A stretch of DNA of 27,973 nucleotides from a virus: positions 1-27,973 of the IMG/VR virus record IMGVR_UViG_3300028571_001490; one strand, 5' to 3'. Each line of letters opens with the position of its first letter. Positions within the stretch are counted from its first letter, which is position 1. A model generated the notes under the pieces. The model was given only the letters and a program-made list of their open reading frames with translations. It was not told the DNA's origin and searched no databases. Shown here piece by piece: positions 118 through 21,819 of this stretch. A program made the position numbers and the translations under genes.

Positions 118-3100
118 TTAACATTGAGTTGATGATAATCCGATTACAACACCAGATCCAGTTAAGTCCCAGTTAGCTCCTTGGTGGAATACATATATTT
201 CACTAACCACGTTCTGTAATGTAAAATCTGTGTATAATATACATCCAGGGCTAATTGTCTGACAATTTGAATATAATGTTTTCGGATTGATAATAGCGTC
301 GGAACAAGCGTCAGAAACACTTATATCACTAACCCCACTATTACCAAAGGTACCTGTATTAGCGGTTGCACAAGTTTCACAATTGGTATAGGTCTCACTC
401 GGAACACCTGTGAAATAGTTACCACCAAAATTGATTGGAGTAACTTTTGGAGATGGAATGTAAGATGTGTTGAACTGACCAACATAATACCAACAATTTC
501 CGTCATTGTCTTTGAATACCTCATTGACCGCAATTGTGAAAGATACTGGTTGTGTTTGAATAACTTGTTGTATCGTTCCTCTTCCTGCTCCAATACGAAT
601 ACATGACTGATAAACATATAAGAAGTTAGGTGTTGCCGATGGTGATGCCGTTATGGACGGTGTTGGTGTATTTGTTGCCGTTGGAGTTCTAGTTTGAGTT
701 GGCGTAGGTGGAGGTGTGGTTCCATTTGTCGCAGTTTGTGATGGTGTTGCAGTTTGTGTTGCAGTAACGCTAGGTGTGATACCTGCCGTCGCCGATGGTG
801 TCGGTGTTGGAGTTGATGTTACCGTTGCTGTCGGTGTTGGAACATTGCTACAGTATTCACAAGAAGAATAAATTTGAACAATATCCCCAAGATTACTATT
901 AGATGACAAGTTGTTATCATCTCTCGTATAAACCACACAACGATTAGTTCCATTAACCTGTACAAACATTGTCATACCAACTATCACAGGAGTTCCGCTA
1001 AATGATAATGAATCATTAGTGTAGAATTCTTCTCCTGTGTCGCAATCAGTCAATACTTTAACTGAGACACAACTGAATGTTTGGTCTAACATTTCAAATG
1101 TTCTATTACCTCCAATTGAAACTGTTCTTGTAAGTGTTACCGAAGGAGTCAAAGTTACCGTTGGAGTAGTTGAGGTATACCCACTCAAACTAAAATTAAT
1201 TCCAACTCCCGAACAGAAATTACCTGAAGGTGTTGGTGTTGGTGTAACACCAATAGAATCAATTATAAAATTAACATCATCACAAGCAACACTCGGAGTT
1301 GGAGTTGGAACTGGTTCCCAATCACAATCAAAGTAAGCGTTGAAATCAAAAGTAGAACAATCAATCGGAGTTGGCGTCGGAGTAGGACATATACCTCCCT
1401 CAAAATCATTAGCAGAAATGTCAGGACACTGTGAATTACATGGATTAGAACCTCTCAATATACAAGCACCCCCCAAAGAAGTACTCAAACACCAATATTG
1501 AGTTGTATGATAAATAACCGCAGAAGTTAATCCATCTCCAGAATAATAAATTCTTGAGTTGTATGTTCCTGCCGATTCATAATTTCCATTGTATCCTGAG
1601 AATGAAGGTAAAGTTGTGTAAAAACAAAAATCTGTGAACGCACAAGCCGATGGAGATGCTGAAACTGTTGGTGTTTGGGTCGGTGTAGATTGTGGAGTAT
1701 TAGTCGGTGTTGGAGTAGGTACACACAACAAACAATTATCATAATCAGGATCTCCCATGTAAGGACCACCTGGTCCAGAAAATTCAACAAAACTATAACA
1801 CTCACCATTGTAAAGATAGGCCGCCCCAACAAATGCGGTGTCCTCATTAACATTAGCATAAAATACACTACCGTTAGAACACTTATATAATAATGCCGCA
1901 GTTATATTTGTTCTCGGACACAGAGAATCTGCACAGTTTGGAACTTGTGTAAATGTAACCCCTAAGGAGTCATATATAGTACCTGTAGTAAATCCACTTA
2001 CAATTGTTGCACATCCTTCAAATTCCGAACTACCAGTAATGTAATATGTATTCCCAATTGTAACAGGTATACTTGGTCCTCCGAATCTGAATATGTTAGA
2101 TCCATTTGTACAATCTTGGAACTGTACAATAACACTATTCGTCGCACTCGGAGTTTGAGTTTGTGTTGGAGTTTGTGTTGAAGTATTTGTAGGAGTTTGT
2201 GTTTGTGTTGAAGTATTTGTAGGAGTTTGTGTTTGCGTAGGTGTTTGTGTTGGGGTCTCGGATGGAGTACTTGTGTTCGTCGATGTTTGTGTTGGAGTAG
2301 CTGTTTGTGTTGGAGTTTGAGTCGGAGTTTCCGTAGTAGTAGGGGTATTGGTAGGCGTTTCTGTAGGAGTACTGGTTTGTGTTTCAGTTGGAGTAGCTGT
2401 CAACGTAGTCGTTGTCGTAGGAGTTTGTGTAGGAGTCTCAGTAGGAGTCTGTGTTGGTGTATTGGTATTTGTTGCAGTTTGCGTTGGAGTTTCAGTTGGA
2501 GTCGGCGTAGAAGTTTCGGTAGCAGTTGGAGTCAATCCAACTGTTGCGGTTGTAGTGGGGGTACTTGTTGGTGTTTCTGTATTTGTCGGCGTTGGAGTTT
2601 CGGTTGGAGTTTGAGTTGGCGTTTCGGTGGGAGTTGAAGTCGGAGTTTCAGTTGGAGTTGGAGTTAATACTTCAATACAACCTCCACAAAAAGATTCATC
2701 GACTTGAATTATAGTCAGACCTGGAGTTTCGGCGTAACTACCAAGTATTGCACAAAAATATCCAGTTCCTCCAGGGAATGGGACGTTGTTTATAGATTGA
2801 GAAACGTGATTACAATCTAAATAAGTTATTGTATTGATACCGGTAGGTTCTCCATCATTGGTGTATTGATAACAAACACATGAATCAATAGGAGTAGGTG
2901 ATGGTGTGGGAGTTGGGGTTGGAGTTTCTACAGAACAAGGCTGACACCCTCCAGCAAAACTATCGTTTTGATATGCAATCGGAGCGGCAAATGGTCGCCA
3001 AAACTCCCTAATTTGTCCACCTGACGCAAGATAAAATTCTTGCCCCACAGCAACTTGAGATTCAAAGGGTGTGATATCACAATTTAGAATTTCATCAAGG

Positions 3101-3231
3101 TCACAAAACGCCGGGTTTGGATTACCAGGATCTCCATCAAATGATAAATTATATGATGTCGCGGTGCATGTCAGTGCCTTTAGGTATAGATCCGTTCCTC
3201 CACTATAAAAATTTACCGATATTATTCCCAT
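118..3231 (-). CDS. 1037-residue Pro-Thr-rich modular surface protein (putative fibre/adhesin)
   Basis: Cys-paired modules alternate with Pro/Thr linkers. Residues 1-100 form a module ending GGCQPC. A short PT linker follows, then a module at 116-188 ending FCGGC, a long TPTE/TPTQ linker at 190-365, and modules at about 366-503 (two CxxC-type pairs), 530-616, 625-680, 705-796 and 870-955. The C-terminal Cys-rich domain is at about 960-1037. Modules repeat the pattern C-x-G ... G-x-C-Y/W ... C-x-x-C. No signal peptide or membrane segment is visible, which fits a virion protein rather than a secreted host protein. Start ATG at 3231 has no Shine-Dalgarno; the upstream bases are ACGAACAATACTTAC. 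Pro-Thr-linked Cys modules are seen in large proteins of environmental tailed phages. A tail or capsid decoration fibre is the best guess. The Thr-dense linkers would be good O-glycosylation substrates, but that is inference. It reads away from the S74 gene at 3647. Confidence 0.8.
625..843 (-). repeat. Second Pro-Thr linker repeat
   Basis: Encodes residues 797-869 of the same protein, a more degenerate Pro/Thr/Ser/Ala tract of TATP, TPTP and SATP units joining two Cys modules. It uses the same GTTGGTGTTGGAGTT-type DNA words as the long linker and so could recombine with it, which would delete the modules between them. Confidence 0.7.
2137..2664 (-). repeat. Imperfect Pro-Thr codon repeat (long linker)
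   Basis: This stretch encodes residues 190-365 of the 1037-residue protein, built from [12 protein letters not shown] and TPTS units. At the DNA level (plus strand) it is a degenerate array of GGAGTTTGTGTTGGAGT-like words with 6-, 12- and 18-base periods. Two adjacent near-identical copies of GTTGAAGTATTTGTAGGAGT are visible at about 2187-2225. All periods are multiples of three, so slippage or recombination would change linker length without breaking the frame. Confidence 0.85.
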
Positions 3232-3646: not shown

Positions 3647-5581
3647 ATGAGAGCAGTTATTATAGGCACTGATTTTATGAAAGATACCGATGGTACTTTC
3701 AAAGCATTAGAAACAAATACAAACATTCAATTAGATACCCAATGGTCTCTTAACTTTGATTCCGAATTATTTGAGAACTTTGTACTTTCAAATAATTTTA
3801 CAGAAGTTGTATTGATTTCGAATGAACATAGTACATCCTCTGAAACATCTCACTCAATTAATTATGAAATTAATGAACTTCGTAGTACAAATGTAAATCG
3901 TACTGAGAACTCATTACCAACAATACCTTTCAATTTTACTTTTGATCAATATTTGAAATCATTTTTATCTGAAAGTAATATAGAATTAATAACTATAAGC
4001 ACAGATGCCACTTCTACTACAATTCCTTTTGTAGAAGATGCAGAAGATAAACTAATTATACGATTATCATTTGATACAACTGCATTGATAGATGATAACT
4101 ACACAAGAGATAATTGGGGATTTTTAAGATTAATGTATGATGCTGATAACAATTCTATTCCAAAATGTTATATTAATGATACTGAATTCGGTATAGATAG
4201 TATTGGAGATACATTAAGAGATAATGGTAATCATCCTAATTATTGTATTAAAAAAAGAGTAACACCATCGGATAATAAAATTTATCCAAAATTATTTAAA
4301 CTTTCTACTTTAGAACAATTGAATGATTTAAAGTCTAATTTGGAAGTTGATGAATATATCCAAGAATATATTTTTAACACTGATGATTTATTTGATGGTA
4401 GATTAAATACATATAGAAGTATAGATTTATTATATGGCTCAAATTTGGATATTATTAACTTACAAGTTATAGAAAAAACAAAAATTTTACCACTTCTATC
4501 TTCAGCAGATTTTGATGATACTAACCAAGTCCAACATTGGGATCGAATGAGATATCTTCAAAAATTTTATACATTTGCTTCCGAAGTTGCCATCGAATTG
4601 AGTGCTACCGATAACACTAAAATATTATTACCAAACGGTACTACTAAATTGGCAACAAGTTTAAAATTAGGGGATGAGGTTAAAACTCTAAATATTCCAA
4701 ATATACTTGATGATGATCTTATGTCAAATTTAGATGAATGGTCTACCTCATACGATTCGGTAATAAATGATTATCAATTATCTTCGACATTTCTAGCCCA
4801 TGAGGCGATAACTTCTGATTATTATGGAATTTTAGTAACCTTTAATACTGAATCGAATACAATATTTAGTGATGTAGGACACGCTAAAATAATGGTGAAA
4901 GATGGAGAAAACGTTAAATTCGAAAAGTTCGGTCTTCTGAAAATTGGAGACGAAGTTTTCATATATGACACGAATATAAGTCAATTAATTACTACTAAAA
5001 TAACTGAGGTAAATTTTAGATTTGATAAATTTACTGCTTATACTTTAGATTTTGAAGAAATAGATTGGTTCATAACTATGGAAGAAACTGAAAATCAAAG
5101 TAGGTATGGATTAATTACTCATAATTACACTTACGATTGTAGGTATTGGAGTGTTACATATAATAGTGGCCCTGGATATTGTGTTACTTGGTTCACTTGC
5201 ACAGGTGGTGGGCAGCTTACAACTTGTCCTTGGAATTATAACCTTCAGGGTCCATGTTCAAGAACTCTATTTGTCGGTGGAAAATCTCCTGCATCGTTTA
5301 CCTACTCACCTGGTAGTGCGAGCCTTAACATTGGGGCCTTCTGTAATAGCGAAAAACCATCAGATATTAACTATAAAGAAAATCTAACTTTAATTGGTGT
5401 ATCTGAACTCGGATTAAATGTTTATCAATATAATTACAAAAACGAAGAAGGTTTATATCAAGGAGTTATAGCTCAAGAATTGATTGGAACCACTTTTGAA
5501 AACGCGTTATCATTAAATATAGATGGTTTATATGAAGTAGATTATAATAAAATAGATGTGGAATTTAAAAAAATAAATTAA
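3647..5581 (+). CDS. Fibre-like protein: ATP-grasp-like start, Hint-like middle, S74 self-cleaving chaperone end
   Basis: The last 73 residues are a Peptidase_S74 intramolecular chaperone: S572-D573-x-x-x-K577-E-N, then LGLNVYQYNY and GVIAQEL. The Ser/Lys spacing of five matches the endosialidase-type self-cleavage dyad, so cleavage before S572 after trimer folding is expected. Just before it, residues about 495-568 are rich in Gly, Cys and aromatics (CRYWSVTYNSGPGYC), like a receptor-binding tip. Residues about 317-479 resemble a Hint/intein fold: S319-A-T-D-N-T-K-I, LKLGDEV, H412, a second LKIGDEV and YTLDFEEIDWFI. The C-terminal His-Asn is missing, so splicing is unlikely. Residues 1-310 contain ATP-grasp-like strings (DGTFKALETNTN at 15-26; IKKR at 201-204; YIQEYI at 237-242). 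S74 ends are typical of phage tail fibres and spikes. It is the first gene of the plus-strand operon. The overall architecture is unusual. Confidence 0.8.
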   Translation: MRAVIIGTDFMKDTDGTFKALETNTNIQLDTQWSLNFDSELFENFVLSNNFTEVVLISNEHSTSSETSHSINYEINELRSTNVNRTENSLPTIPFNFTFDQYLKSFLSESNIELITISTDATSTTIPFVEDAEDKLIIRLSFDTTALIDDNYTRDNWGFLRLMYDADNNSIPKCYINDTEFGIDSIGDTLRDNGNHPNYCIKKRVTPSDNKIYPKLFKLSTLEQLNDLKSNLEVDEYIQEYIFNTDDLFDGRLNTYRSIDLLYGSNLDIINLQVIEKTKILPLLSSADFDDTNQVQHWDRMRYLQKFYTFASEVAIELSATDNTKILLPNGTTKLATSLKLGDEVKTLNIPNILDDDLMSNLDEWSTSYDSVINDYQLSSTFLAHEAITSDYYGILVTFNTESNTIFSDVGHAKIMVKDGENVKFEKFGLLKIGDEVFIYDTNISQLITTKITEVNFRFDKFTAYTLDFEEIDWFITMEETENQSRYGLITHNYTYDCRYWSVTYNSGPGYCVTWFTCTGGGQLTTCPWNYNLQGPCSRTLFVGGKSPASFTYSPGSASLNIGAFCNSEKPSDINYKENLTLIGVSELGLNVYQYNYKNEEGLYQGVIAQELIGTTFENALSLNIDGLYEVDYNKIDVEFKKIN

Positions 5582-5582: not shown

Positions 5583-5732
5583 ATGGCAACCGAAATTAAC
5601 AAAAATGTAACATACACAAATTTTACTGATTTGTTTAAAAGACAGAGAATTAATACCAGTTCATCGGTTAAAACTGCTCTTTTACAAAAAATTAATACAT
5701 TTGTAGATGCGGTAAAGGAAAAACATTTATAA
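5583..5732 (+). CDS. 49-residue protein, unknown
   Basis: Starts two bases after the S74 gene stop (TAATATG) and ends 18 bases before the zinc-ribbon gene. The product begins MATEINKNVTYTNFTDLFKR and continues with a Ser/Thr stretch and a C-terminal helix ending AVKEKHL. It has no Cys, signal peptide or membrane segment. Tight spacing inside the operon supports it as a real gene. A small partner of the preceding fibre protein is possible from position alone, but no family is recognised. Confidence 0.65.
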   Translation: MATEINKNVTYTNFTDLFKRQRINTSSSVKTALLQKINTFVDAVKEKHL

Positions 5733-5750: not shown

Positions 5751-6032
5751 ATGTTTGATAAAGTAAGGGAAATAGGTGAATCTTGGATTATATCTAATAA
5801 CCCATCTGAAGCTCAATTAAAACTAGCTGAAGCACGATTGGATATATGTACAGGTTGTGATAAGATGGTAAAAGGTACTCTTGTAGAGTTTAAATGTTCG
5901 GAGTGCGGGTGTCCTATTCATAAAAAGATATTTTCACCTAAATTCGATGCATGTCCTTTACATAAATGGTTGGATGTTGAAAATACAAATTTATATCACG
6001 ATACACAAAAAAAATCAAAAAGTTTTTTATAA
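5751..6032 (+). CDS. Small zinc-ribbon protein (CxxC/CxxCxC/C)
   Basis: A 93-residue protein with C33-x-x-C36, C49-x-x-C52-x-C54 and C68-P-L-H-K-W, a likely four-ligand zinc ribbon. An N-terminal helix (residues 1-32) and a polar Lys/Ser tail flank it. Small proteins with a C-terminal CPLxKW-type motif behind two CxxC knuckles occur in many marine phages, usually without a known role. The stop is followed directly by the ATG of the next gene (TAAATG), so the two are probably translationally coupled. DNA binding, RNA binding or protein contact are all possible; the sequence does not decide. Confidence 0.75.
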   Translation: MFDKVREIGESWIISNNPSEAQLKLAEARLDICTGCDKMVKGTLVEFKCSECGCPIHKKIFSPKFDACPLHKWLDVENTNLYHDTQKKSKSFL

Positions 6033-6767
6033 ATGTCTTTATTGATAAATGATGAATTGATTTGGGTTAGTATCCCAAAAAACGCAAGTTATTCAATTGA
6101 GGAATCATTAATTAATTCTAATCTTAAAATAAATCATTCTTCTACTTTCTATTCAATAAAAAAAATGAATGAATCGATTGGTAGTGATATAATACCACAT
6201 CCGCATGTTGAAATGGGGAAACTAAAATTAGAATTTGGTGATAAGGAAACATTTTGTATAAAAAGAGAAATTGGTGATAGATTTAAATCTTCTATTGAAT
6301 TTATTTTTTCTACAATTATAAATTATAATAAACATACTCCAATAATTCCTATTTCAGAAATCGATAATAATTTTATATATTCATTTTTTAATTTAGAAAA
6401 TATCAATAATTTATTTGACACATCATTACAAAAACACAATTCATGGTTTCAAATTTACAATAAATTGATTAAAGAAGATTTAAAGTTTAGTGATGTTTAT
6501 TTTGATACATATCAAAATTTTTGTACTTTACTTCCACAAAATTTTTTTACTCTTTCTAAGAAATGCACCTATGAATTTGATATTTCAAATTTAGATGAAT
6601 ACGCTTTATTTATGAAAGACAAATTTAATGTCAATATAAAAGTAAAAAAAATAAATAGAAGCACAAATAAAAATGAATCTAATATAGAAAATAATACTGA
6701 ATTTAAAAATTGGGTTTTTGATAATTTTGAAAAAAGATTTGAAGTTAATAATAAAAAAATTATATGA
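6033..6767 (+). CDS. Sulfotransferase-like protein
   Basis: A 244-residue protein whose start (WVSIPKNASYSI, residues 11-22) matches the 5'-phosphosulfate loop of sulfotransferases (typically IPKTGSTSI). The 3'-phosphate region appears as IKREIGDRFKSSIEF, the equivalent of VRDPYERFLSSY. The normal Asp-Pro of that motif is replaced, so activity is uncertain. It is a distant relative of the pair at 10596 and 11345, with the same length and motif order. If active it would transfer sulfate from PAPS to a sugar or protein; no PAPS-making genes are visible here. The coding is extremely AT-rich with runs of A and T. Confidence is high for the gene and moderate for the family. Confidence 0.65.
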   Translation: MSLLINDELIWVSIPKNASYSIEESLINSNLKINHSSTFYSIKKMNESIGSDIIPHPHVEMGKLKLEFGDKETFCIKREIGDRFKSSIEFIFSTIINYNKHTPIIPISEIDNNFIYSFFNLENINNLFDTSLQKHNSWFQIYNKLIKEDLKFSDVYFDTYQNFCTLLPQNFFTLSKKCTYEFDISNLDEYALFMKDKFNVNIKVKKINRSTNKNESNIENNTEFKNWVFDNFEKRFEVNNKKII

Positions 6768-6783
6768 TAGAATTTTTCAATAA

Positions 6784-7167
6784 ATGAAAATTTTTAATAA
6801 AATTAAATTAGAAATCAGATATATAGATGATGTAAAGGGGTTTGGTGTATTTACATTGGAAAAAATTAATATAGGTGATATAGTTGAAACTTGTTATTTT
6901 TTACCAATTTATAATTCTAATATCAACCCATTATTAGATTATTTATTTCAAATTGATGAACATACAACCAAAAGAATCTTTCCCTTGGGATATGGTGCTA
7001 TTTATAATCATTCAGATTCTCCTAATATCAATTGGAAAGTAAAAGATGATAAATTCATTGAATTTTATTCATTAAAGGAAATTGAATCAGGTGATGAATT
7101 ATGTCATGATTATGGACCTAAATACTGGCAAACATATTGGGAAATTAGAAAAAATAAAATAATTTAG
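6784..7167 (+). CDS. SET-domain protein (putative lysine methyltransferase)
   Basis: A compact 127-residue SET domain. N-terminal strand KGFGVFTLEKINIGDIVE (18-35), the NHSxxPN motif at N75-H76-S77 ... P80-N81 and the GDELCHDYG motif at 103-111 with catalytic-type Tyr110 are all present. The family transfers a methyl group from S-adenosylmethionine to lysine side chains. The usual post-SET zinc Cys cluster is absent, as in many small bacterial and viral SET proteins. It lies between a sulfotransferase-like gene and a truncated duplicate, in a run of modification enzymes, so a virion or host protein target is plausible. The target is unknown. Confidence 0.85.
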   Translation: MKIFNKIKLEIRYIDDVKGFGVFTLEKINIGDIVETCYFLPIYNSNINPLLDYLFQIDEHTTKRIFPLGYGAIYNHSDSPNINWKVKDDKFIEFYSLKEIESGDELCHDYGPKYWQTYWEIRKNKII

Positions 7168-7179
7168 TATTAAAATTAG

Positions 7180-7427
7180 TTATTATTTTTAATGAAATTT
7201 TACATTCATCATTTTCATTCAATTTCTCTTTTTTATAAATTGTTTCATAAAACAACTAATAGAAGATATGAACTAACTAATAACATTGGTTCTATTTTTT
7301 GTAAATATGAAGAGTGTGATTTAGAATTAGTATTCAATCCAATTATAAATGATAATACCGATGGAACTCATATATTAGATTTTCTAACTTGTTTAGAACA
7401 GATAAATGAAGATGATAAGTTAAAAAA
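7180..7427 (+). repeat. Direct repeat, copy 1 (5' part of the gene at 8095)
   Basis: About 250 bases, including 12 leader bases TTATTATTTTTA and the first 78 codons, are repeated at 8082-8330. I count 14 base differences over the 78 codons and a one-base length difference just before the ATG. Similarity ends sharply near codon 79. Confidence 0.9.
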
Positions 7428-7440
7428 TAGGTTATACTAA
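7192..7440 (+). CDS. Truncated duplicate of the 426-residue gene downstream
   Basis: An 82-residue product identical to residues 1-78 of the protein at 8095 except H9 versus Y and K38 versus R, then a short new tail (RLY) and a stop. Of 14 base differences from the long copy, 12 are silent, so both copies were under selection for protein sequence for some time after they separated. The break does not coincide with a domain boundary that I can recognise. It may be a recombination scar left when the 2OG oxygenase gene at 7448 was inserted between two copies, a still-useful N-terminal fragment, or a pseudogene. Leader and start are intact, so it is probably translated. Confidence 0.6.
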   Translation: MKFYIHHFHSISLFYKLFHKTTNRRYELTNNIGSIFCKYEECDLELVFNPIINDNTDGTHILDFLTCLEQINEDDKLKNRLY

Positions 7441-7447
7441 ATATTTT

Positions 7448-8062
7448 ATGAATTATATAGAACAATTAAAAGAAACTCCTTTACAAATTGAAAATTTTTT
7501 ATCAATTGAAAGTGCAAATAAAGTTTATACCTTAATAGATAATTACAAAAATTGGGAAGTTAGTTCAATTTTCAAACAAACTTATGAATTTGAAAAAAGT
7601 AAATTTGAACAAGGTTATTTTTCATATTGGTATAACAATATTAGAGATAAAGAATTTATACATAATTTATTAAAAATACTAAATTTTGATTTTGAAATAA
7701 GTAGATTACTTAATGATAATTTTTTTGTTCCACAAGATATTTTTGTTTCAAAATACACAAAAGGACATTTTCTATCTCCACATGATGATAAAACACCAGA
7801 TAGGAAGTATGCATTTGTCTATAATTTAACTAAAGATGCTGATGAGAGTAAAGGTGGTTGTTTAAATTTTATTGATGATGATAATAATACCACTCATAAA
7901 TTACTACCAAAATTTAATAGTTTAAACATTTTTGATGTAATTAATATTAAAAATAGACACTTTGTTAGTGAAGTAACGGATATAGAATACAAACGATATG
8001 CAATATCAGGATGGTTAACTGAAACCGATACTAAAATGAAAAGTAAAAATAGTTTGATATAA
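7448..8062 (+). CDS. 2-oxoglutarate/Fe(II) oxygenase, prolyl 4-hydroxylase-like
   Basis: A 204-residue protein with the double-stranded beta-helix signature. H112-x-D114 (FLSPHDDKTPDRKYAFVYNL) and distal H171 (RHFVSEVT) are the iron ligands. R183 (YKRYAISGWL) is the 2-oxoglutarate salt-bridge residue. GGCLNF (136-141) is the usual hairpin between them. The family hydroxylates proline or other side chains, or small molecules, using O2 and 2-oxoglutarate. Its start follows the truncated duplicate by seven bases. It is one of three oxygenases in this operon. The substrate cannot be told from sequence; a phage or host protein is the usual suggestion for this type. Confidence 0.88.
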   Translation: MNYIEQLKETPLQIENFLSIESANKVYTLIDNYKNWEVSSIFKQTYEFEKSKFEQGYFSYWYNNIRDKEFIHNLLKILNFDFEISRLLNDNFFVPQDIFVSKYTKGHFLSPHDDKTPDRKYAFVYNLTKDADESKGGCLNFIDDDNNTTHKLLPKFNSLNIFDVINIKNRHFVSEVTDIEYKRYAISGWLTETDTKMKSKNSLI

Positions 8063-8081
8063 AAAACAAACATCGAAACGA

Positions 8082-8330
8082 TTATTATTTTTAAATGAAA
8101 TTTTATATCCATCATTTTTATTCTATTTCTCTTTTTTATAAGTTGTTTCACAAAACAACTAATAGAAGATATGAACTAACTAATAACATCGGTTCTATTT
8201 TTTGTAGATACGAAGAGTGTGATTTAGAATTAGTATTCAATCCTATTATAAATGATAATACCGATGGGACTCATATATTAGATTTTCTAACTTGTTTAGA
8301 ACAAATAAATGAGGATGATAAATTAAAAAA
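8082..8330 (+). repeat. Direct repeat, copy 2
   Basis: The full-length counterpart of the repeat at 7180-7427. It includes the leader TTATTATTTTTAA and the first 78 codons of the 426-residue gene. The two copies are about 900 bases apart and in direct orientation; recombination between them would delete the oxygenase gene at 7448. Confidence 0.9.
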
Positions 8331-9375
8331 CATTGATTGTGTAAATAGAAAAGAAGGAGATACGTCTCATCGTGGAAAATGGGGTGCTGAATTTGGTATT
8401 AATGATATTCCAATAATGAAATGGATATCCAATACTTTGGAAAATAAAAATAATTGGTTTATTTTTTTATTACGAACTGAAAAATCTATCATTAAATATG
8501 ATGGTATTAACTATCCAAATGTGATGGATTTGGAGGTTCAAATAGATAGATTAAAAAATCATTTTATCATATCAGATAATGTAATTTTTAATGAGTTTGT
8601 AAAAACCAAATACCCAAATCACTTTTTTTGTTTAACTAATACAATACACCAATGGAATGAACTCTTATCAATTCGTTGGTATTATGAATTTAAAAATATA
8701 TTTAGTAAATTAAACCAACCTTATGATTTGTGTTTTTCTATGAGATACCATAAGAGAAACAGAACTAATATCATAAATGGATTAGCAAAACTAAATGATG
8801 ATAGAATATACCTTTCAAGAGTAGATAATTGTATTAATAAAGAATTTGATATTTTCTCTAAACAATTAGAAAAAAATATCAACTACAATATTAATAAAGG
8901 AGATGATTTTGATGATATATCTTGGATTGAAAATATAGAACACTATTTAGACTATTTGATGAGAATTCTTCCTACGTCTAAAATGCATATATTGTCTGAA
9001 ACTTGGGATTGGAAAGAAGGTGATTTTACATCAAACTATTTATCTGAAAAAACGTATGGATTCTTACTAGCTAATATTCCTTTTATATCAACACATCAAT
9101 ATCCATTAGATGTGGTAGCCGAAATATTGGATACGCCTCCGCATCCATTTTATAATCAAATAAAAAAAGCAAATGGTAATCCTGAAAAATTTGTTTTATT
9201 CGTGGAAGAATTTATGAAAAATTATGAAATTAATAGACAAATGTGTATTAATTGGAGTAATAATACACATAATAAATTAATGAGTTTTATTAACTGTGAA
9301 AATTCATTTTTAAAAAAAATAATTCATAATAACTTTATTATAGAAAAAAATACTATATACAAAAACATTATATAA
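8095..9375 (+). CDS. 426-residue SEKT-family protein (glycosyltransferase-like)
   Basis: Its C-terminal half carries S317-E318-K319-T320-Y321, followed by a hydrophobic strand and a Pro (FLLANIPFISTHQYP). The same block occurs in the proteins at 13132 and 18145 of this window. Before it lies a block with a basic patch (DLCFSMRYHKRNRTNIINGL), also shared in outline. A conserved Glu-Lys followed by an aromatic/Pro strand near the C-terminus resembles the donor-sugar site of GT-B enzymes such as fucosyltransferases, so a glycosyltransferase is the best guess, held loosely. It has no membrane segment or signal peptide. Its N-terminal 78 residues are duplicated upstream. The next gene starts one base after its stop. 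Confidence 0.6.
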   Translation: MKFYIHHFYSISLFYKLFHKTTNRRYELTNNIGSIFCRYEECDLELVFNPIINDNTDGTHILDFLTCLEQINEDDKLKNIDCVNRKEGDTSHRGKWGAEFGINDIPIMKWISNTLENKNNWFIFLLRTEKSIIKYDGINYPNVMDLEVQIDRLKNHFIISDNVIFNEFVKTKYPNHFFCLTNTIHQWNELLSIRWYYEFKNIFSKLNQPYDLCFSMRYHKRNRTNIINGLAKLNDDRIYLSRVDNCINKEFDIFSKQLEKNINYNINKGDDFDDISWIENIEHYLDYLMRILPTSKMHILSETWDWKEGDFTSNYLSEKTYGFLLANIPFISTHQYPLDVVAEILDTPPHPFYNQIKKANGNPEKFVLFVEEFMKNYEINRQMCINWSNNTHNKLMSFINCENSFLKKIIHNNFIIEKNTIYKNII

Positions 9376-9376
9376 T

Positions 9377-10027
9377 ATGGAAAAACTATATTTTGATGAT
9401 ACAACATTTATATGGAAAACAAAACTTAATTTATTTGATAATAAAAATGAAATAATTAAACAAGCAAAACATGTTATAAAATCCCACATCGGTAATATCA
9501 CCGACGGTTTTGGGTATCTAACAACGGAAAATGATAAAGTGTTAGATATCGCAGCTTGTGGAAACCAACCCATATTAGATAAAATAATTGAATTAAGTAC
9601 CAATTATTGTAAGGAATTATATATTGAAAGTAATGATTATAACAAATTAAATGTAGAATCTTGGATTAACATAGTTAGATCAGAAAATCCAATACAACCG
9701 ACATATGTAGATAGAGACTTAGGAGGAGAGTTGAGGTATCATGTGCATACTAAACTTAATAAAATTACTAAATCATTTTTTCCACATTATACATACGTTT
9801 ATTATGTTCAAATGCCCGATGTAATGAATGGAGAGGATGGTGTTTTATACTTTAAATCAAAGAATGATATCACATACTGGGTAAAACCAGAAGAAGATGA
9901 TTTGATTATAATGACGGGAGATATGCCACACGTACCAAATAACTCACCCAACTCAACATTAGATAGAATAGTTATTGCAGGTAATGTTGGTTTTGAATTT
10001 ATTAAAAACTTTAAAACTATAATATAA
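9377..10027 (+). CDS. Putative 2OG-Fe(II) oxygenase fold protein
   Basis: A 216-residue protein whose second half looks like the jelly-roll of 2OG oxygenases. YHVHTKLNK (121-129) leads into VYYVQMPD, then GEDGVLYFKSK, VKPEEDDLIIMTGDMPHVPNNS with H185, and LDRIVIAGNVGF with R197. The order H ... G-x-L-x-F ... H-x-V ... R-x-x-x-x-x-N is that of the family. The first metal motif is H122-x-H124 rather than a clean HxD, so the iron site or even activity is unsure. The N-terminal 100 residues are not recognised. The stop TAA overlaps the next ATG by one base (TAATG), so it is coupled to the clear oxygenase that follows. Confidence 0.6.
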   Translation: MEKLYFDDTTFIWKTKLNLFDNKNEIIKQAKHVIKSHIGNITDGFGYLTTENDKVLDIAACGNQPILDKIIELSTNYCKELYIESNDYNKLNVESWINIVRSENPIQPTYVDRDLGGELRYHVHTKLNKITKSFFPHYTYVYYVQMPDVMNGEDGVLYFKSKNDITYWVKPEEDDLIIMTGDMPHVPNNSPNSTLDRIVIAGNVGFEFIKNFKTII

Positions 10028-10596
10028 TGTTTACCAAATACATTGAAAATTTTTTAACACAGGAAGAGTGCGAACAGATAATTCTTTTAGGGGAGTCTGT
10101 GGGCCTAATCCAAATGAAATCATCACTAATTGTAAATGGTAAACTAATTAAAAAGAATGTAAGTTATACTGGAAATAAAAGAATGGGTTGTTATTTTTTA
10201 GGTGATTTATTGGAAAATGAACTATTAAAAAATATTACAAATAAGATTGTCGAATTATCTAATAACCTAAATCCATTTAAAGGTTTATATTATACAAAAG
10301 TACCGAGTTATTCATTTAATAGATATGGAGAAGGGGATTTTTTAGAGTGGCATTCGGATAATCATGAAATTTTAAATGGTGCAACAATCACCTTCATTAT
10401 TCAACTTAACGATGAATATGAAGGTGGTCATGTTAAATATATTACAAATAGAACCAATCACACCACACCCAAAAAAACAGGAAGTGTATTAATATTCGAT
10501 TCAAATATAGTTCATTCAGTTGACGAGATAATAAAAGGAACTAGATATTCATTGAATGTATGGCCACGTAAGATAATTAAACAATCTATATTATAA
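10027..10596 (+). CDS. 2-oxoglutarate/Fe(II) oxygenase (PKHD/P4H type)
   Basis: A 189-residue protein with complete catalytic residues: H109-S-D111 in DFLEWHSDNHE, H163 in SNIVHSVDE and R173 in GTRYSLNVWP. GGHVKY (133-138) lies between them. The family hydroxylates protein or small-molecule substrates with O2, Fe(II) and 2-oxoglutarate. Start and stop are each coupled to neighbours through TAATG one-base overlaps, so it is co-translated with the oxygenase-like gene before it and the sulfotransferase-like gene after it. The N-terminal helix (TQEECEQIILLGES) is the usual lead-in of prolyl-hydroxylase-like enzymes. Confidence 0.88.
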   Translation: MFTKYIENFLTQEECEQIILLGESVGLIQMKSSLIVNGKLIKKNVSYTGNKRMGCYFLGDLLENELLKNITNKIVELSNNLNPFKGLYYTKVPSYSFNRYGEGDFLEWHSDNHEILNGATITFIIQLNDEYEGGHVKYITNRTNHTTPKKTGSVLIFDSNIVHSVDEIIKGTRYSLNVWPRKIIKQSIL

Positions 10597-11336
10597 TGTT
10601 AGTAGAAAATAAATTTATTTATGTATCATTACCACGTTGTGCCTCTTCTTCCTTTATGGCATCGTGTATAAACCAAAATCTAAAGATACAACATTTGAAA
10701 AAAGATTGGGATATTGAAACCCAAAATAAAAAATATAATGTAGATATAACTAAAGTAGATTACACTAATTTTGAAATTTTTCCACTTTATCATGGACATG
10801 AGCCAATAAATGAGTTACGAGATAAATTTGGTAATTCATATGATGTTATTTCTGTTAAACGGGATAAATATGACAGGTTTATTTCATTATGGGGACACTT
10901 TTTAAATTGGTCGTATGTTACAAATGATACTGATACATTTGGAAAATGTTTAAATCTAACTATGAATGATATTTTTTTTTATAAAACCAATGATTTGCAA
11001 ACATCCGATTCTATTAAAGAACAAGTTGAAATTTTTGTAAAGACTTATAAATTAGATAACCTCACAAAGGGCGCAAAGGGTATACTTCATGTTCTTTTAA
11101 CTCCATATTCGAGATGGCATAATCATGACCCAAATATAATATGGTTTGATTTTAATGAATTATACAAATTAGAAGAGTGGGTATCTAAAAAATTAGATAT
11201 TAATTTTAAATTAATTAAGTTGAATAGTAGTAAACATTTTCAACCCAACTTACTACTTAATGATGAATTTAAAGAAAAATATAATTCTATTTATTTACCT
11301 TATGATGAAATAAAAAATGTAAAAACATTTTTTTAA
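10596..11336 (+). CDS. Sulfotransferase-like protein, tandem copy A
   Basis: A 246-residue protein. YVSLPRCASSSF (residues 9-20) is the phosphosulfate-binding loop, and SVKRDKYDRFISLW matches the 3'-phosphate motif (R-x-x-Y-x-R-x-x-S-x-Y). A conserved block WHNHDPNIIWFDFNELYKLEEW lies near the C-terminus. The first 47 bases are identical to the gene at 11345, and 86 bases at 11115-11200 differ from it by one base, while the middle is much more divergent. A role in sulfating a glycan or protein is likely if PAPS comes from the host. The acceptor is unknown. No membrane anchor is visible, so it would act in the host cytoplasm. Confidence 0.7.
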   Translation: MLVENKFIYVSLPRCASSSFMASCINQNLKIQHLKKDWDIETQNKKYNVDITKVDYTNFEIFPLYHGHEPINELRDKFGNSYDVISVKRDKYDRFISLWGHFLNWSYVTNDTDTFGKCLNLTMNDIFFYKTNDLQTSDSIKEQVEIFVKTYKLDNLTKGAKGILHVLLTPYSRWHNHDPNIIWFDFNELYKLEEWVSKKLDINFKLIKLNSSKHFQPNLLLNDEFKEKYNSIYLPYDEIKNVKTFF

Positions 11337-11344
11337 ATATAATA

Positions 11345-12082
11345 ATGTTAGTAGAAAATAAATTTATTTATGTATCATTACCACGTTGTGCGTCAACTGC
11401 GTTTATGGCATCGTGTGTAAAACAAAATTTAGATATTAAACATTATAATAATGATTACAATATGGATAATCAAATTATTAATAGTCGGTATGATGATGTG
11501 AGTCAAATATATTTTCAAGACTTTGAAAAAGAGTTTGTTCATAACCATGAATCGATACGTGTTTTAAAAGAAAAATTTGGATATTATTATGATATCATAT
11601 CTGTTAGAAGAAATAAATATGAAAGATTTATATCCTTATGGAAGCACCTATTAAAAAAGTTTGATGGATATAATAATTTAGATGCAGTTAATAAATTATC
11701 AAATCTTACTATTGACGAATTATTATTCTATAAAACAAATGATTTACAATCAGTAGAAAGTGTAGAAGAAGTTATTGAAATTTTTATAAAAACCCATAAG
11801 TTAACGGTTCATGAGGTTGAAAAACAAATGTTAAGAATTTTGATATCTCCCTATTCAAAATGGCATAATCATGACCCTAATATAATATGGTTTGATTTTA
11901 ATGAATTATACAAATTAGAAGAGTGGGTATCTAAAAAATTAGATATGGATTTTAAGTTAATTCATTTAAATAGTAGTAATCACTTTGATTCAAAATTAGA
12001 ACTTAATGATAAATTTAGAGAAAAATATGATTCAATTTATTTACCTTACGATGAAGTAAAAAGTACAAAAACACTATTCTGA
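11345..12082 (+). CDS. Sulfotransferase-like protein, tandem copy B
   Basis: A 245-residue paralogue of the preceding gene, eight bases after its stop. It has the same loop (SLPRCASTAF), the 3'-phosphate motif SVRRNKYERFISLW and the HNHDPNIIWFDFNELYKLEEW block. The pair probably arose by tandem duplication. Their nearly identical ends but diverged middles suggest different acceptors with the cofactor-binding and C-terminal parts kept alike, or partial gene conversion. The stop TGA overlaps the next start (TGATG). Confidence 0.7.
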   Translation: MLVENKFIYVSLPRCASTAFMASCVKQNLDIKHYNNDYNMDNQIINSRYDDVSQIYFQDFEKEFVHNHESIRVLKEKFGYYYDIISVRRNKYERFISLWKHLLKKFDGYNNLDAVNKLSNLTIDELLFYKTNDLQSVESVEEVIEIFIKTHKLTVHEVEKQMLRILISPYSKWHNHDPNIIWFDFNELYKLEEWVSKKLDMDFKLIHLNSSNHFDSKLELNDKFREKYDSIYLPYDEVKSTKTLF

Positions 12083-12525
12083 TGAAAAACTACATTTTAC
12101 ATACAGATACTTTTATAAAAGAAGAATTAACTATACATCATATAGTAGATATCCAAAATTATATTTCCGATATTCAATCCCTAATCGATTCCTTTAATTT
12201 AGAATATAAATGGGATGGAATGTTTGATATAGATGAGTGTAAAAATAGAATCAATTCAGGTCAATATTTGTTTTTATTAAAACTAAACGATATCCCGATT
12301 GGATATGTTTGGTTTAAAGAAATTACGTCAGATACTTGTTTTGGATATAATCTATATGTTACTAAACAAACACCAAGACCAAAATACGCACCAACTTGGT
12401 TTTATAGAAAAGTTAGTGGTATTATACTAGAAAAATATAATTCAATTCATGTTGAAATAGAAGATTGGAATGATGTTGTGTTTGAATTAGTTGAAAGTAT
12501 TGGTTATCAAATGCAATATGAATAA
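12082..12525 (+). CDS. GNAT-like acyltransferase
   Basis: A 147-residue protein with the outline of the GNAT fold. A beta-hairpin LFLLKLNDIPIGYVWFKE is followed by a strand (FGYNLYV) and, near the end, a helix and WNDVVFELVESIGYQMQYE, which matches the C-terminal N-x-x-A-x-x-x-Y-x-x-x-GF motif of the family. The acetyl-CoA loop (normally Q/R-x-x-G-x-G/A) is not clear: TPRPKYAPTWFYRKVSG sits where it should be. An acetyl or other acyl transferase acting on a sugar or protein is a reasonable guess, held at moderate strength. It overlaps the previous gene by one base and the next by eight. Confidence 0.5.
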   Translation: MKNYILHTDTFIKEELTIHHIVDIQNYISDIQSLIDSFNLEYKWDGMFDIDECKNRINSGQYLFLLKLNDIPIGYVWFKEITSDTCFGYNLYVTKQTPRPKYAPTWFYRKVSGIILEKYNSIHVEIEDWNDVVFELVESIGYQMQYE

Positions 12526-13135
12526 GTTATGGACATTTGGAGATAGTAATACTGCAGGACATGGATGTCATTCGAGTGATGAGTATTATGAAAAGTATTA
12601 CAAATCAGGAGATGGGATTTGGCCAGTATGGTTAAGTGATAAATTAAATGTTGAACTAAAAAATCTTGGAAAGAATGGAAGTTCAAATGATACAATCATA
12701 GATACTATAATTGATAAGTGGGAAAAAATAAATAGTGGTGATTATGTGTTTATTGGAATGACACACCCCCATCGATTTGATGTACCAATTAATAATCATT
12801 TTGAATCCATAGTTCACGATTTTTCAAAAAGTAAAACCGAAAATGGATTAACTAATGATGAATTTGAAACCATCATAAATTTCCAGTATTACTTTGCAGA
12901 TAACATTCTATATAAGAATAGACAAATAAAAAGATTTGAATGGATTAAAAAACTCCTCATACAAAAGGGATGTGGAAAAGTAATTTTATGGAATGTTCAG
13001 ACTGATTTAAAAAGTCTTGAAACTATAAAAGATGCAACTAAAGGACAAATAGTAGATTATCATCTTTCATTCAAATCACATAAATCATTATCTGAAATTT
13101 TTTATAAGAAGTATTTTGAACCCGAATTGATATGA
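12518..13135 (+). CDS. SGNH/GDSL-family hydrolase
   Basis: A 205-residue protein starting MNKLWTFGDSNTAGHGC. GDS at 8-10 is block I with the catalytic Ser. GKNGSSNDTIID gives the Gly/Asn of blocks II-III, and DYHLSFKSHKSLSEIFYKKYF near the end supplies the Asp-x-His pair (compare DIHWS at the end of the protein at 23237). I chose ATG 12518 over an upstream TTG at 12491, because the longer form adds only nine residues deep inside the previous gene and the GDS block normally lies within about 10-15 residues of the start. The family removes or transfers acyl groups on glycans or lipids. It follows a GNAT-like gene, so acyl addition and removal may act on the same product. Confidence 0.75.
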   Translation: MNKLWTFGDSNTAGHGCHSSDEYYEKYYKSGDGIWPVWLSDKLNVELKNLGKNGSSNDTIIDTIIDKWEKINSGDYVFIGMTHPHRFDVPINNHFESIVHDFSKSKTENGLTNDEFETIINFQYYFADNILYKNRQIKRFEWIKKLLIQKGCGKVILWNVQTDLKSLETIKDATKGQIVDYHLSFKSHKSLSEIFYKKYFEPELI

Positions 13136-14283
13136 GTGATTTAAAAAACTTATTAATAAATGTTGGATATGATGATTTATCTCATCTAAATTTACACAAT
13201 TATAATATCGAACCTGATTGGATTATTGATGGTAAAACAAACATTTCAAATTTATTAGATAATACTTTAGGTAATTTCAAAGAAAATACTATTCATTTTT
13301 TTATTAAAAATAATTTAAATTTTATATATCCTATACTACTATTTGATGATAAGTTATTTGACAATCATAAAACTATTAAATTAGATGATAAATTAATAAC
13401 ATCAATTAAACTCAAAAAATGTAAAGTTGTTTTTGCTTATTTACTTGAAGGATATTTCAATACATCATGTGTGAATTGGATAAACGATTTATGTCAAAAA
13501 TATAATTTTTCTAAAGATGATGTTATTGTCATTACCTCAAACCTAATCCAATTTTTAAATAATAATTTTACTATAATCAATTACAATTATTTTGGTAACC
13601 ATATAAACTTTTTACCAGTATCCAAATTAGATTCCATAAAAGTAAAATTATATCAAACCGAATATGAGAAATTTTTAAATACTAATTTTGAATTCCATTT
13701 TTTGTGTTTTAATGGTATAGCTAGAGAAAATAGATTATTAATGTTTAATGAATTAACTACTAATTCAAAATTTAAAAATAAATCTATTACAACATTACGA
13801 GGTGTTGATAAAAACTATTATTATGATGTTCCGAGTTGGGATAATCAAAAAATAGGTGGAGGTGCACGACTAAATGTTGATGCACATTTGAAAAGTTTTT
13901 TAAATATAGTCACTGAAACTCTATATGATAGTGATTCAATTTTCATATCTGAAAAAACATATAAACCCATCTACCTATGTCAACCTTTTATTGTATTTGG
14001 AAATCCTTTTACTTTAAATAAACTACATGAGTTGGGTTATAAAACATTTGATAAGTGGTGGGATGAGAGTTATGATTCCGAACTTGACTTAAAAATCAGA
14101 TTTAATAAAATAGTAAAGGTGATGGAAACTATATCTGAATTAAATTTGGATGAATTGAAAGAATTAAAGAATGAAATGAGAGATGTAGTAGTACACAACT
14201 ACTTAAATTTTTTTAAAGTTAATGAACTTAAAGATTTGTTTAAATTACTTCAATGTGATTTTAACAAAAAAACATTAATTTAA
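13132..14283 (+). CDS. 383-residue SEKT-family protein (glycosyltransferase-like)
   Basis: Contains the same C-terminal block as the proteins at 8095 and 18145: S273-E274-K275-T276-Y277, then KPIYLCQPFIVFGNP, a helix, GYKTFDKWWDESYD and a helical end with RFNKIVKVMETIS. An earlier block (FHFLCFNGIARENRLLMFNEL) matches CYNRNLTMHRLGIL in the protein at 18145. This is a recurrent phage family with no proven role that I know of. The conserved Glu-Lys plus Pro-Phe strand is reminiscent of the nucleotide-sugar site of GT-B glycosyltransferases. It overlaps the SGNH gene by four bases (ATGA) and is the last gene of the plus operon, ending 20 bases before the shared hairpin. Confidence 0.6.
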   Translation: MSDLKNLLINVGYDDLSHLNLHNYNIEPDWIIDGKTNISNLLDNTLGNFKENTIHFFIKNNLNFIYPILLFDDKLFDNHKTIKLDDKLITSIKLKKCKVVFAYLLEGYFNTSCVNWINDLCQKYNFSKDDVIVITSNLIQFLNNNFTIINYNYFGNHINFLPVSKLDSIKVKLYQTEYEKFLNTNFEFHFLCFNGIARENRLLMFNELTTNSKFKNKSITTLRGVDKNYYYDVPSWDNQKIGGGARLNVDAHLKSFLNIVTETLYDSDSIFISEKTYKPIYLCQPFIVFGNPFTLNKLHELGYKTFDKWWDESYDSELDLKIRFNKIVKVMETISELNLDELKELKNEMRDVVVHNYLNFFKVNELKDLFKLLQCDFNKKTLI

Positions 14284-14303: not shown

Positions 14304-14329
14304 AAAACCTCAACTTGCATTAAGGTTTT
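14304..14329. terminator. Hairpin between converging operons
   Basis: Arms AAAACCT (14304-14310) and AGGTTTT (14323-14329) form a seven-base-pair stem with a 12-base loop. Read on the minus strand the stem is followed by a run of seven T, and the hairpin overlaps the stop of the leftward gene. Read on the plus strand it follows the stop at 14283 and has A-rich then T-rich flanks. It is placed to stop both operons. The stem is short and only three pairs are G-C, so termination may be weak. Confidence 0.6.
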
Positions 14330-15312
14330 GAATTTGGGTTATATTGATTTTTATTTAATTTATACCATTCAATGGTTTCTTTTAAAGCTTCTTTTAAGTT
14401 TCTTTTTGGTTTCCAACCATATTCATTAATTTTCTTTGAAGATAATAAACGAACCGGAATCATTGGTGCTTTGTTGTTTACGAATTCAATTGGATTATCA
14501 TTTCCATCAATTTCTTTAATCCAACTCAATACTTCATTAACACTAAATCCTTCTCCATACGCAACATTAAATATATTAAATTTATCGTTATTTTCAGCAA
14601 CCCAAATAAATCCATCTACCATATCTTCAACATGAAGTAAATCTCTTACCTCCGTCCCATCTCCCCACACCGGAATCGGATTTAATCCATCGGCGACTTT
14701 ACGAATGTTTGCCGGAGTAACATGACATTTCTCATAATCAAATTTATCGTTTGGTCCGAATGCATTTGAAGGTCTTACAATCAAACATTGCATTGGATTA
14801 TGAATTTGATGTGAAAAATAATCACATAACAATTCACCATATCTTTTCATATTACCAACTGCCCCGTAAATAGGAAATGTAGGAGTCGCATGAACGTTTA
14901 TATCTTCAGTACAAAATTCATCTTTCATATCAGGATAAACTGTGTTAGATGAAATAAATAAAAATTTCTTCACACCATTTCTCCAAGATTGTTCCATAAG
15001 ATTTACATTCATCTCAACATTTGGAGTAACATGTAAAAGTGGATTTTCTTTTGTATCTAATGCATTCGAAGTATTTGCAGCGCAATGAAAAACTACATCA
15101 ACATCTTTTGTCACATTTTCACAAAAAAAATTTGTTTGTAAATCCCCTTGAAAATGTTGTATATCTTCCCAACCTTCAAAATCACCTCTTAAATCTCTAC
15201 TAAATGATGTTGAACGAAGGTTTTTATATCCCTTTTCCCAAAGTAATCTTAACAAATGTGATCCAATAAATCCACTTGCCCCTGTAACTAAAATCTTGTC
15301 TGTTTTTTTCAT
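14320..15312 (-). CDS. SDR sugar-nucleotide epimerase/reductase (GDP-fucose synthase/ColC-like)
   Basis: A 330-residue extended SDR. The Rossmann loop GASGFIGSH is at 11-19. The C-terminal substrate region has AFGPNDKFDYEKCHVTPANIRK and VWGDGTEVRDLLHVEDM, the layout of GDP-4-keto-6-deoxymannose reductases/epimerases. The active site is odd: where YxxxK is expected the sequence reads VGNMK (in IYGAVGNMKRYGE), so the Tyr is shifted or lost, and the Cys used for epimerisation in GDP-fucose synthase (SSCIYP) is Thr (SSNTVYP). A 4-ketoreductase without epimerase activity is my preferred reading. It is the last gene of the leftward operon, next to the hairpin. Start ATG 15312 follows TAAGTT. Confidence 0.75.
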   Translation of the reverse strand: MKKTDKILVTGASGFIGSHLLRLLWEKGYKNLRSTSFSRDLRGDFEGWEDIQHFQGDLQTNFFCENVTKDVDVVFHCAANTSNALDTKENPLLHVTPNVEMNVNLMEQSWRNGVKKFLFISSNTVYPDMKDEFCTEDINVHATPTFPIYGAVGNMKRYGELLCDYFSHQIHNPMQCLIVRPSNAFGPNDKFDYEKCHVTPANIRKVADGLNPIPVWGDGTEVRDLLHVEDMVDGFIWVAENNDKFNIFNVAYGEGFSVNEVLSWIKEIDGNDNPIEFVNNKAPMIPVRLLSSKKINEYGWKPKRNLKEALKETIEWYKLNKNQYNPNSKP

Positions 15313-15387
15313 AACTTATTTTTTATATTCATTTAAATAATAGTCAAAATTATTAATTTCCATATTTGTCTTTCTTTGTAAAATATA

Positions 15388-16356
15388 CTATGTCCTTGTG
15401 CCATAACCTAATGGAAATCCATTTCTATATTTTGATGATAAATCTTGTATTAAAATTGTGTATGTTTTAATTAATTCTTCAATCCCATCCTCTAAACTCC
15501 AATCAGGATGCCATCCAGTAGATTCTATTTTAGCATTTGAAACTAAATAATCTCGTTTATCAGGGTCTTGATAAAAATCAGAATAAGTGATTATAAAATC
15601 AGGAACAAATTCTTTAATTTTTTCTACCAATTGGGCCTTGGTTAAATTAGCAGATGTCAACCCTAAATTAAACACTTCTCCTTGAAATTTTTCGTAATTT
15701 TCTATCATATATTCGAATGTCTTCGCAACATCTCTAATATGAATGTAATTCCGTTTAAAATTTTTCTCAAAAATAGTAATGTACTTGTCTGTTAATGCCT
15801 TATAAACAAATTCATTAACCAATAAATCCATTCTCATTCGTGGTGATGAACCAAATACAGTGGCAAGTCTTATTGAAATTCCACCGATATTAAGAACCTC
15901 TTTCTCGGCAAGAACTTTGGTCACCCCATAGTGCGAAATTGGGTTAAGTGGACTTTCTTCAGTACACTCACCATTCTCATCTATCCCATAACCACTATTT
16001 GTATTTGGATATACTACTTTTATATTAGTACCACGAACTAAATCACATATTTCTTTAACGTGTTGGTAATTTACTGCGGTTGCAAGAACTTTATCTCTAT
16101 CACATGCAGGAAATCCTACGATTGCTGCAAGTGGAATAACCATATTAAATAGTGGCACGAGTTTTTTTAATAAATTAGTATCTCTGACATCCCCATAAAT
16201 AAAATGGAAATTCTTATTATAAGAATAATGAATTAGGGATGTTTGATTATACATCAAATTATCTAATACAGTTACTTCATAACCACTATTTAATAATTTA
16301 TCTACCAAAACCGAACCGAGGTATCCAGCTCCTCCGGTGATTAAAATTTGTTTCAT
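15388..16356 (-). CDS. NAD-dependent epimerase/dehydratase (UDP-glucose 4-epimerase-like SDR)
   Basis: A 322-residue extended SDR with a canonical GGAGYLGS loop (8-15), DNLMYNQ after the second strand, GDVRD, the VIPLAAIVGFPACDRD segment and an intact catalytic Y-G-V-T-K in SHYGVTKVLAE. The Ser/Thr of the triad is in NTNSGYG. The LAAIVGxPAC string marks a subgroup common in phage and bacterial surface-sugar clusters, whose exact substrate is rarely known. Epimerisation at C4 or a dehydratase/reductase step on a nucleotide sugar is expected. It starts eight bases after the stop of the 38-residue gene, with leader TTATAAA. Confidence 0.8.
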   Translation of the reverse strand: MKQILITGGAGYLGSVLVDKLLNSGYEVTVLDNLMYNQTSLIHYSYNKNFHFIYGDVRDTNLLKKLVPLFNMVIPLAAIVGFPACDRDKVLATAVNYQHVKEICDLVRGTNIKVVYPNTNSGYGIDENGECTEESPLNPISHYGVTKVLAEKEVLNIGGISIRLATVFGSSPRMRMDLLVNEFVYKALTDKYITIFEKNFKRNYIHIRDVAKTFEYMIENYEKFQGEVFNLGLTSANLTKAQLVEKIKEFVPDFIITYSDFYQDPDKRDYLVSNAKIESTGWHPDWSLEDGIEELIKTYTILIQDLSSKYRNGFPLGYGTRT

Positions 16357-16364
16357 TTTATAAT

Positions 16365-16481
16365 TTAATGATTATAAATAAAAGGGTCTCTCTTTTTCAA
16401 CTCTTCAATTTTCTTTTTTAATTCTTTTTTCCTTTTGCGGTCTTTAATTTTTTTAAGGAACCAATCTATAATTTTTTTCAT
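16365..16481 (-). CDS. 38-residue Lys-rich helical protein
   Basis: Complete minus-strand frame from ATG 16481 to TAA 16365. The product begins MKKIIDWFLKKIKDRKRKKE and continues LKKKIEELKKRDPFIYNH: an amphipathic, strongly basic helix with a hydrophobic N-terminal face (IIDWFLKKI). Its ATG overlaps the stop of the carbamoyltransferase (ATGA), and its stop lies eight bases before the next gene, exactly filling the gap, which argues it is real and translationally coupled. Membrane-surface or nucleic-acid binding could be imagined from the charge. No family is recognised. Confidence 0.6.
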   Translation of the reverse strand: MKKIIDWFLKKIKDRKRKKELKKKIEELKKRDPFIYNH

Positions 16482-19881: not shown

Positions 19882-19891
19882 ATTATTTAAT

Positions 19892-21809: not shown

Positions 21810-21819
21810 AAAATATTTT

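Follow-up and report, generated by a model that had tools for sequence, protein, structure and literature searches.

The window is the whole stretch of viral DNA analysed here, 27,973 nucleotides in length. On its plus strand, positions 3647–5581 form a single uninterrupted frame of 644 residues, which had been predicted exactly so, without stops, and every string named in that prediction (LETNTN, IKKR, YIQEYI, S319, H412, both GDEV strands and S572/K577) is found in the sequence. The product, hereafter the precursor, comprises an ATP-grasp-like N-terminal region, a Hint domain, a hypervariable cysteine tail and an S74 domain, and its gene is followed on the same strand by a very short frame, a Zn-ribbon gene and a series of enzyme genes. 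On the minus strand, positions 118–3231 encode a 1037-residue protein with long Thr/Pro repeats (TPTPTPT) between Cys-containing segments and no Pfam family, and positions 14320–27798 hold a long run of NDP-sugar epimerase-like, carbamoyltransferase, transketolase-like and aminotransferase-like genes, all without the C-terminal tag described below.

Peptides of the window protein retrieved ten further loci that share the arrangement at 41–96% identity, and relatives of full length with identical part order are encoded on other viral contigs. Conservation was counted over 62 distinct proteins, and tail cysteines over 62 distinct tails; five loci (L177, L182, L193, L195 and L209) were left out of the tail cysteine count because another Hint or a longer sequence comes after their first His-Asn. 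Searches of 50,697 phage records by tblastn with full-length, N-terminal and Hint queries gave chance-level matches at most, and no relative was found in the cultured-phage collection. One relative (L097) lies on a 3.7-kb contig of a Candidatus Pelagibacterales MAG; this contig is probably viral sequence binned with the MAG, and as a pointer to the host it is a weak hint only. Neither the architecture nor the gene cassette was found described in the literature.

The Hint domain

Residues 1–500 were modelled with AF2 using 29 diverse relatives (pLDDT 75.6, pTM 0.58), an earlier run with 11 close relatives having been discarded (pLDDT 40.7). In the model, residues 319–493 (positions 4601–5125, plus strand) adopt the horseshoe Hint fold. 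VIA-align matched them to the TvoVMA intein (4o1s) with a Z-score of 16.2 over 144 aligned residues at 1.9 Å; inteins matched at Z 12–16, all 50 rows were Hint domains, and several rows equated residues 319–493 with an intein from residue 1 to its last Asn. Foldseek against the PDB returned inteins, Hedgehog or BIL domains in all of its best 44 rows, headed by 4o1s (7.7e-7), and a profile of the Hint alone found 4o1s among PDB sequences at 2.3e-4.

The original prediction had placed an intein-like stretch at about 317–479 and had reported no C-terminal His-Asn. The fold was right, but the domain continues to N493 and the His-Asn is present: the end reads ...RYGLITHN-Y, that is, H492-N493 followed by Tyr, and the His-Asn pair never varies, whether in the first alignment, among the 29 diverse relatives or across the distinct proteins (62/62). 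The remaining landmarks are S319 at intein residue 1, D409-x-x-H412 in block B and D473 in block F, with H492-N493 constituting block G. S319 and H412, proposed as nucleophile and block-B His, do occupy these positions in the window protein but are not conserved in the wider family, where position 1 is Lys in 21, Ser in 17, His in 13, Asp in five, Thr in five and Gln in one of the 62 proteins, and the block-B His occurs in 21/62. Block F carries Asp in 42, His in 18 and Arg in two (Asp/His in 60/62). Position +1, Tyr in the window, is Cys in none, Ser in three and Thr in two of the 62.

In intein chemistry, retention of His-Asn without the splicing nucleophiles corresponds to C-terminal cleavage by Asn cyclisation. 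Because His-Asn is kept here while the nucleophiles at positions 1 and +1 are not conserved, C-terminal cleavage, putatively after Asn493, would be expected instead of splicing. The retention of His-Asn and block F, with position 1 and block B drifting, is moreover the pattern expected under selection for C-terminal cleavage only, and judged by these residues the domain looks like a C-terminal-cleaving Hint, not a dead one. BIL domains, among which 2lwy and 6y75 are structural matches, similarly combine the Hint fold and His-Asn with the lack of a splicing +1 nucleophile; the precursor differs from them in having no conserved Cys at position 1 and in the fusion of its Hint to ATP-grasp-like and S74 domains.

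Homologues with canonical Hints were sought and found among remoter members of the family, at three loci (L177, 5269–7533; L182, 5292–7556; L193, 1104–3371), which match PT-HINT at 1.8e-18 and Intein_splicing at 5.8e-17. There, a degenerate Hint is followed by two canonical Hints, and the proteins end in VHNK without a Cys-rich tail. Going by these sequences, extra canonical Hints stand in place of the Cys tail, which is not universal in the family.

The variable tail and the S74 domain

The tail, residues 494–571 (positions 5126–5359, plus strand), links Asn493 to the S74 serine. The original prediction had passed over this hypervariable segment between two putative processing sites, which proved to be the most informative part of the protein. 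It is also the most variable, with a mean pairwise identity of 22.6% (gaps counted). Relative to the 96% identical homologue it shows 17 nonsynonymous and seven synonymous codon differences, against 2/7 for the N-terminal 318 residues and 0/2 for S74. The tail contains six cysteines in the window protein and 6, 8, 10 or 12, never an odd number, in 62/62 distinct tails of 25–109 residues. When mapped onto a tree built from the remainder of the protein, the cysteine number changed at least 13 times with zero parity changes, 13 being the parsimony minimum on one tree and the tail counts being related by descent; on the same tree, ten other residues gave 14–23 parity changes and Cys outside the tail gave 14. 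Since the number is always even, the simplest explanation is pairing, and the counts are best explained by predicted disulfides formed outside the reducing cytoplasm.

The S74 intramolecular chaperone spans residues 572–644 (positions 5360–5578, plus strand). PF13884 matches the window protein at an E-value of 3.6e-4 (21.2 bits; cut-off 22) and 10/11 close relatives (best 3.2e-5), and PHROG 6121 matches down to 4.7e-11. Across Pfam, PHROGs and NCBIfam, S74 was the sole family matched, apart from a single relative with a weak match to Hint. S572, D573 and K577 are invariant in the alignment of relatives, in keeping with the predicted S74 end and with the S74 chaperones of phage fibres and MYRF-type proteins, which have the same Ser at the domain start and Lys at +5. 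Unlike in those proteins, the S74 of the precursor is preceded by a short Cys-rich module and not by a long beta-helix. It is also missing in many relatives: it is present in 22/62 and was gained or lost at least three times on the tree, and relatives without it terminate in a comparable tail of about 25–68 residues.

The Hint fold, the motifs, the cysteine parity and the gene linkage detailed below are computed observations, and the reading we favour, at a probability of roughly 0.6, is that of a self-processing phage precursor from which a variable module with disulfide-paired cysteines is released or exposed. The principal competitor is an ordinary fibre or virion protein in which a degenerate ATP-grasp and an uncleaved Hint serve as shaft or connector and S74 folds the Cys stretch into a receptor-binding tip. 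S74 domains usually terminate fibres and spikes, the PHROG families matched are those of tail fibre or virion proteins, and the variable part lies immediately N-terminal to S74, where receptor-binding tips sit. We nevertheless regard this as unlikely: a universally retained His-Asn and an ATP-grasp catalytic set that is likewise invariant in 62/62 speak for chemistry, clades devoid of S74 retain both the Hint and the Cys tail, and the neighbouring genes are of tailoring-enzyme type rather than tail genes. Of the original picture of two autoprocessing-derived modules in one fibre, the Hint and S74 modules stand, but the fibre appears doubtful, given the many relatives without S74 and the enzyme neighbours.

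Neighbouring genes and a shared C-terminal tag

At nearly all loci read, the precursor gene is followed 3' by a cassette consisting of a frame of 25–49 residues and a Zn-ribbon gene. In the window, the small frame (positions 5583–5732, plus strand) encodes 49 residues, MATEINKN...KEKHL. The KEKHL ending in 49 residues is the variant of the S74 clade, and frames of 25–30 residues ending in ..NS occur in another clade. The Zn-ribbon gene (positions 5751–6032, plus strand) encodes a DUF6171-like protein of 93 residues with the C-terminus ...KSFL; it adjoins the precursor gene in 25/25 loci and lies just upstream of it in some clades. An independent scan of viral contigs with the Zn-ribbon alone yielded 80 loci, with a precursor within 600 bases of 63/80 ribbon genes; the remaining ribbon genes include some at contig ends and a distinct set without a precursor gene. 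As a strong cassette marker, the Zn-ribbon has relatives encoded by 528 stretches in viral contigs.

Beyond the ribbon, positions 6033–14283 (plus strand) carry sulfotransferase-like, SET, 2OG-Fe(II) oxygenase, GNAT-like and unknown genes, most of which end in K[T/S/N/K]-phi-phi. Across the loci the neighbours also include GDSL, Trp halogenase and radical SAM genes, with family scores beside the precursor of 2.3e-91 for Trp halogenase, 5e-16 for 2OG-Fe(II) and 2.1e-5 for radical SAM; the labels sulfotransferase-like and GNAT-like rest on strings in the sequence and not on a matched family. Within the window, the sulfotransferase-like genes are duplicated in tandem at 10596–12082 (SLPRCASSSF / SLPRCASTAF), and an 82-residue frame at 7192–7440 is a truncated near-copy of the beginning of a 426-residue gene (8095–9375), which by sequence is a recent partial duplication.

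A C-terminal K[T/S]-phi-phi ends 73/197 frames located up to 10.5 kb downstream of a precursor gene, compared with 2/151 other plus-strand frames and 0/22 minus-strand frames; the internal rate of the tetrapeptide is 0.0012. Variants of this tag (KTLF, KTII, KSFL and KTLI) are common to at least a dozen unrelated families in the window (5751–14283) and its relatives. Ribbons beside the tandem-Hint variants L177, L182 and L193 and beside L195 lack it, and it was not seen in comparable halogenase and oxygenase genes of cultured HTVC008M or P-SSM2. Translational coupling was considered as an artefactual source and is unlikely, with Ser/Thr codons that vary (AGT, TCT, ACA, ACT) and a tag that is nearly absent upstream. 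In its form, the tag recalls short docking peptides at protein C-termini, for example PDZ ligands.

The diversity of tailoring families that share this tag next to the precursor, together with a tail that is hypervariable and a separable unit, would also suit a system akin to peptide natural products, in which the N-terminal part acts as leader plus enzyme and the Cys tail as core; the tagged proteins (oxygenases, halogenase, radical SAM, sulfotransferase and SET) would modify this core before its release by the Hint. We consider this rather improbable, as enzyme action on the tail is putative, enzymes of these kinds occur widely in marine phages, the cultured ones having them without the tag, and S74 in one clade suggests a folded trimer over a small peptide. 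An equally low standing is given to intracellular metal binding (Zn or Fe) by the even cysteines without disulfides, an idea favoured by CxxC and CxC pairs in some tails and by the ever-present Zn-ribbon gene. Metal binding appears less likely because counts of six and ten are common: they occur in 37 tails, against 25 with eight or twelve, so that parity is kept while multiples of four are not, and cysteine spacing is not conserved either.

The ATP-grasp-like region and the proposed pathway

On the strength of the model and the motif matches, residues 1–310 very probably adopt an ATP-grasp fold with the metal hairpin first, in agreement with the permuted ATP-grasp-like N-terminus originally predicted, which the profile of residues 1–36 and the invariant residues support. 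The hairpin, residues 1–30 (positions 3647–3736, plus strand), contains D9, G16 and E22-x-N24-T25. It is followed by a variable alpha/beta stretch of low conservation, residues 31–125 (3737–4021, plus strand; AF2 strands 53–59 and 113–119 plus helices), which may occupy the pre-ATP-grasp position, and by the core, residues 126–308 (4022–4570, plus strand), with R139, K202, the hinge YIQEY and R257. D9, E22, N24, R139, K202 and R257 are each found in 62/62 distinct proteins, and residues 126–318 share 69.5% mean pairwise identity among relatives (gaps counted). The core includes model strands 199–203, 236–240, 252–263 and 268–278, and by strand order K202, R257 and R139 would fall on ATP-grasp nucleotide-site positions.

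The hairpin and the core (residues 122–308) were queried as separate pieces, the permuted order being kept as found. Against PDB sequences, the profile of residues 1–36 gave 19 matches at E≤10. ATP-grasp enzymes (biotin, pyruvate and 2-oxoglutarate carboxylases and D-Ala-D-Ala ligases) account for 15 of them and for all of the top 11; E22 and N24 align with metal ligands, as does D9 in the D-Ala-D-Ala ligase alignments. With a wider 31-sequence profile, 4/4 matches at E≤10 were ATP-grasps at the metal motif. These matches are individually weak (E 0.02 to 3), so that the weight lies on their pattern, which appears to be more than chance. In structural searches, the VIA-align list was occupied by Hint domains, and the sole non-Hint row among the best 50 of Foldseek was GSS22 (5oev; E 4e-4, rank 45), a eukaryotic-type glutathione-synthetase-like protein. 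Bacterial eukaryotic-type glutathione synthetases carry an equivalent string, RTDFMDD...VEFN, at 118–139, which hhalign pairs with residues 4–25 of the precursor (P 0.0034; reversed control 0.84). In this family (PF03917), too, the metal motif precedes the lysine half. Judged by motif order, metal-first is therefore not unique to the precursor, whose version begins at residue 1. The precursor differs in placing the motif (9–24) at the extreme N-terminus, with K202 later, and in its Hint fusion, and sequence similarity was undetected beyond the motif.

A different alpha/beta fold in which ExN occurs by coincidence would fit the failure of Pfam ATP-grasp models to match any family member and of residues 122–308 alone to find an ATP-grasp among PDB sequences. 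It is nonetheless quite improbable in view of the ATP-grasp majority among the metal-motif matches to both profiles, the GSS22 match and the corresponding conserved Lys and Arg. The R2K clade comprises ATP-grasps of peptide-ligase type in bacteria and some phages (Burroughs et al. 2015, PMC4431377), and the text of that paper mentions neither permutation nor Hint. Alignment by hhalign to three R2K.3 proteins was no better than the reversed control, and a search for RimK in the window record and six related viral contigs found none. Finally, a splicing intein inserted into a host gene would account for the Hint fold and is practically negligible, as the position 1 and +1 nucleophiles are not conserved and an insertion-free homologue was not found.

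Under the self-processing reading, the steps proposed for enzyme activity, modification, cleavage, disulfide formation and product destination would run as follows. The N-terminal 310 residues would fold as an ATP-grasp enzyme with the metal hairpin moved to the front. The Hint, having lost the N-terminal splicing chemistry and kept His-Asn, would cut off the downstream part through cyclisation of Asn493. The freed part would be a short hypervariable module whose cysteines pair outside the reducing cytoplasm; in this clade, S74 would trimerise and fold the module and then cut itself off before Ser572. What emerges would probably be a disulfide-rich module, variable in sequence and either released or displayed, on which the ATP-grasp domain (in cis) and enzymes encoded nearby may have acted beforehand. 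More tentatively, the whole may constitute a dedicated, undescribed phage system in which a precursor with a permuted ATP-grasp and a Hint in cis, a shifting set of tag-recruited enzymes and the Zn-ribbon modify the hypervariable disulfide mini-protein, which the Hint (and S74) then free for virion display or secretion.

A close parallel is found in polymorphic toxins, in which a Hint sits just before a variable C-terminal module that it is thought to release (Zhang et al. 2012, PMC3482391). The precursor shares with the HINT-processed toxins (Pfam PT-HINT) a Hint that precedes such a module, but it is encoded by a phage gene, has an ATP-grasp-like N-terminus and an even-Cys tail of 25–109 residues, carries S74 in one clade and shows no toxin-like domain. 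The locus has the look of a hitherto undescribed phage strategy for producing variable disulfide-rich modules and releasing or displaying them. If this is right, phages would produce such modules via self-cutting precursors, a route until now tied to bacterial polymorphic toxins, with a catalytic permuted ATP-grasp added in cis to the Hint, and a natural family of C-terminal-cleaving Hints would become available to protein engineering. It would also provide a hypothesis for the 2OG oxygenases, halogenases, sulfotransferases and radical SAM enzymes found in many aquatic phages, one that the shared tag makes directly testable.
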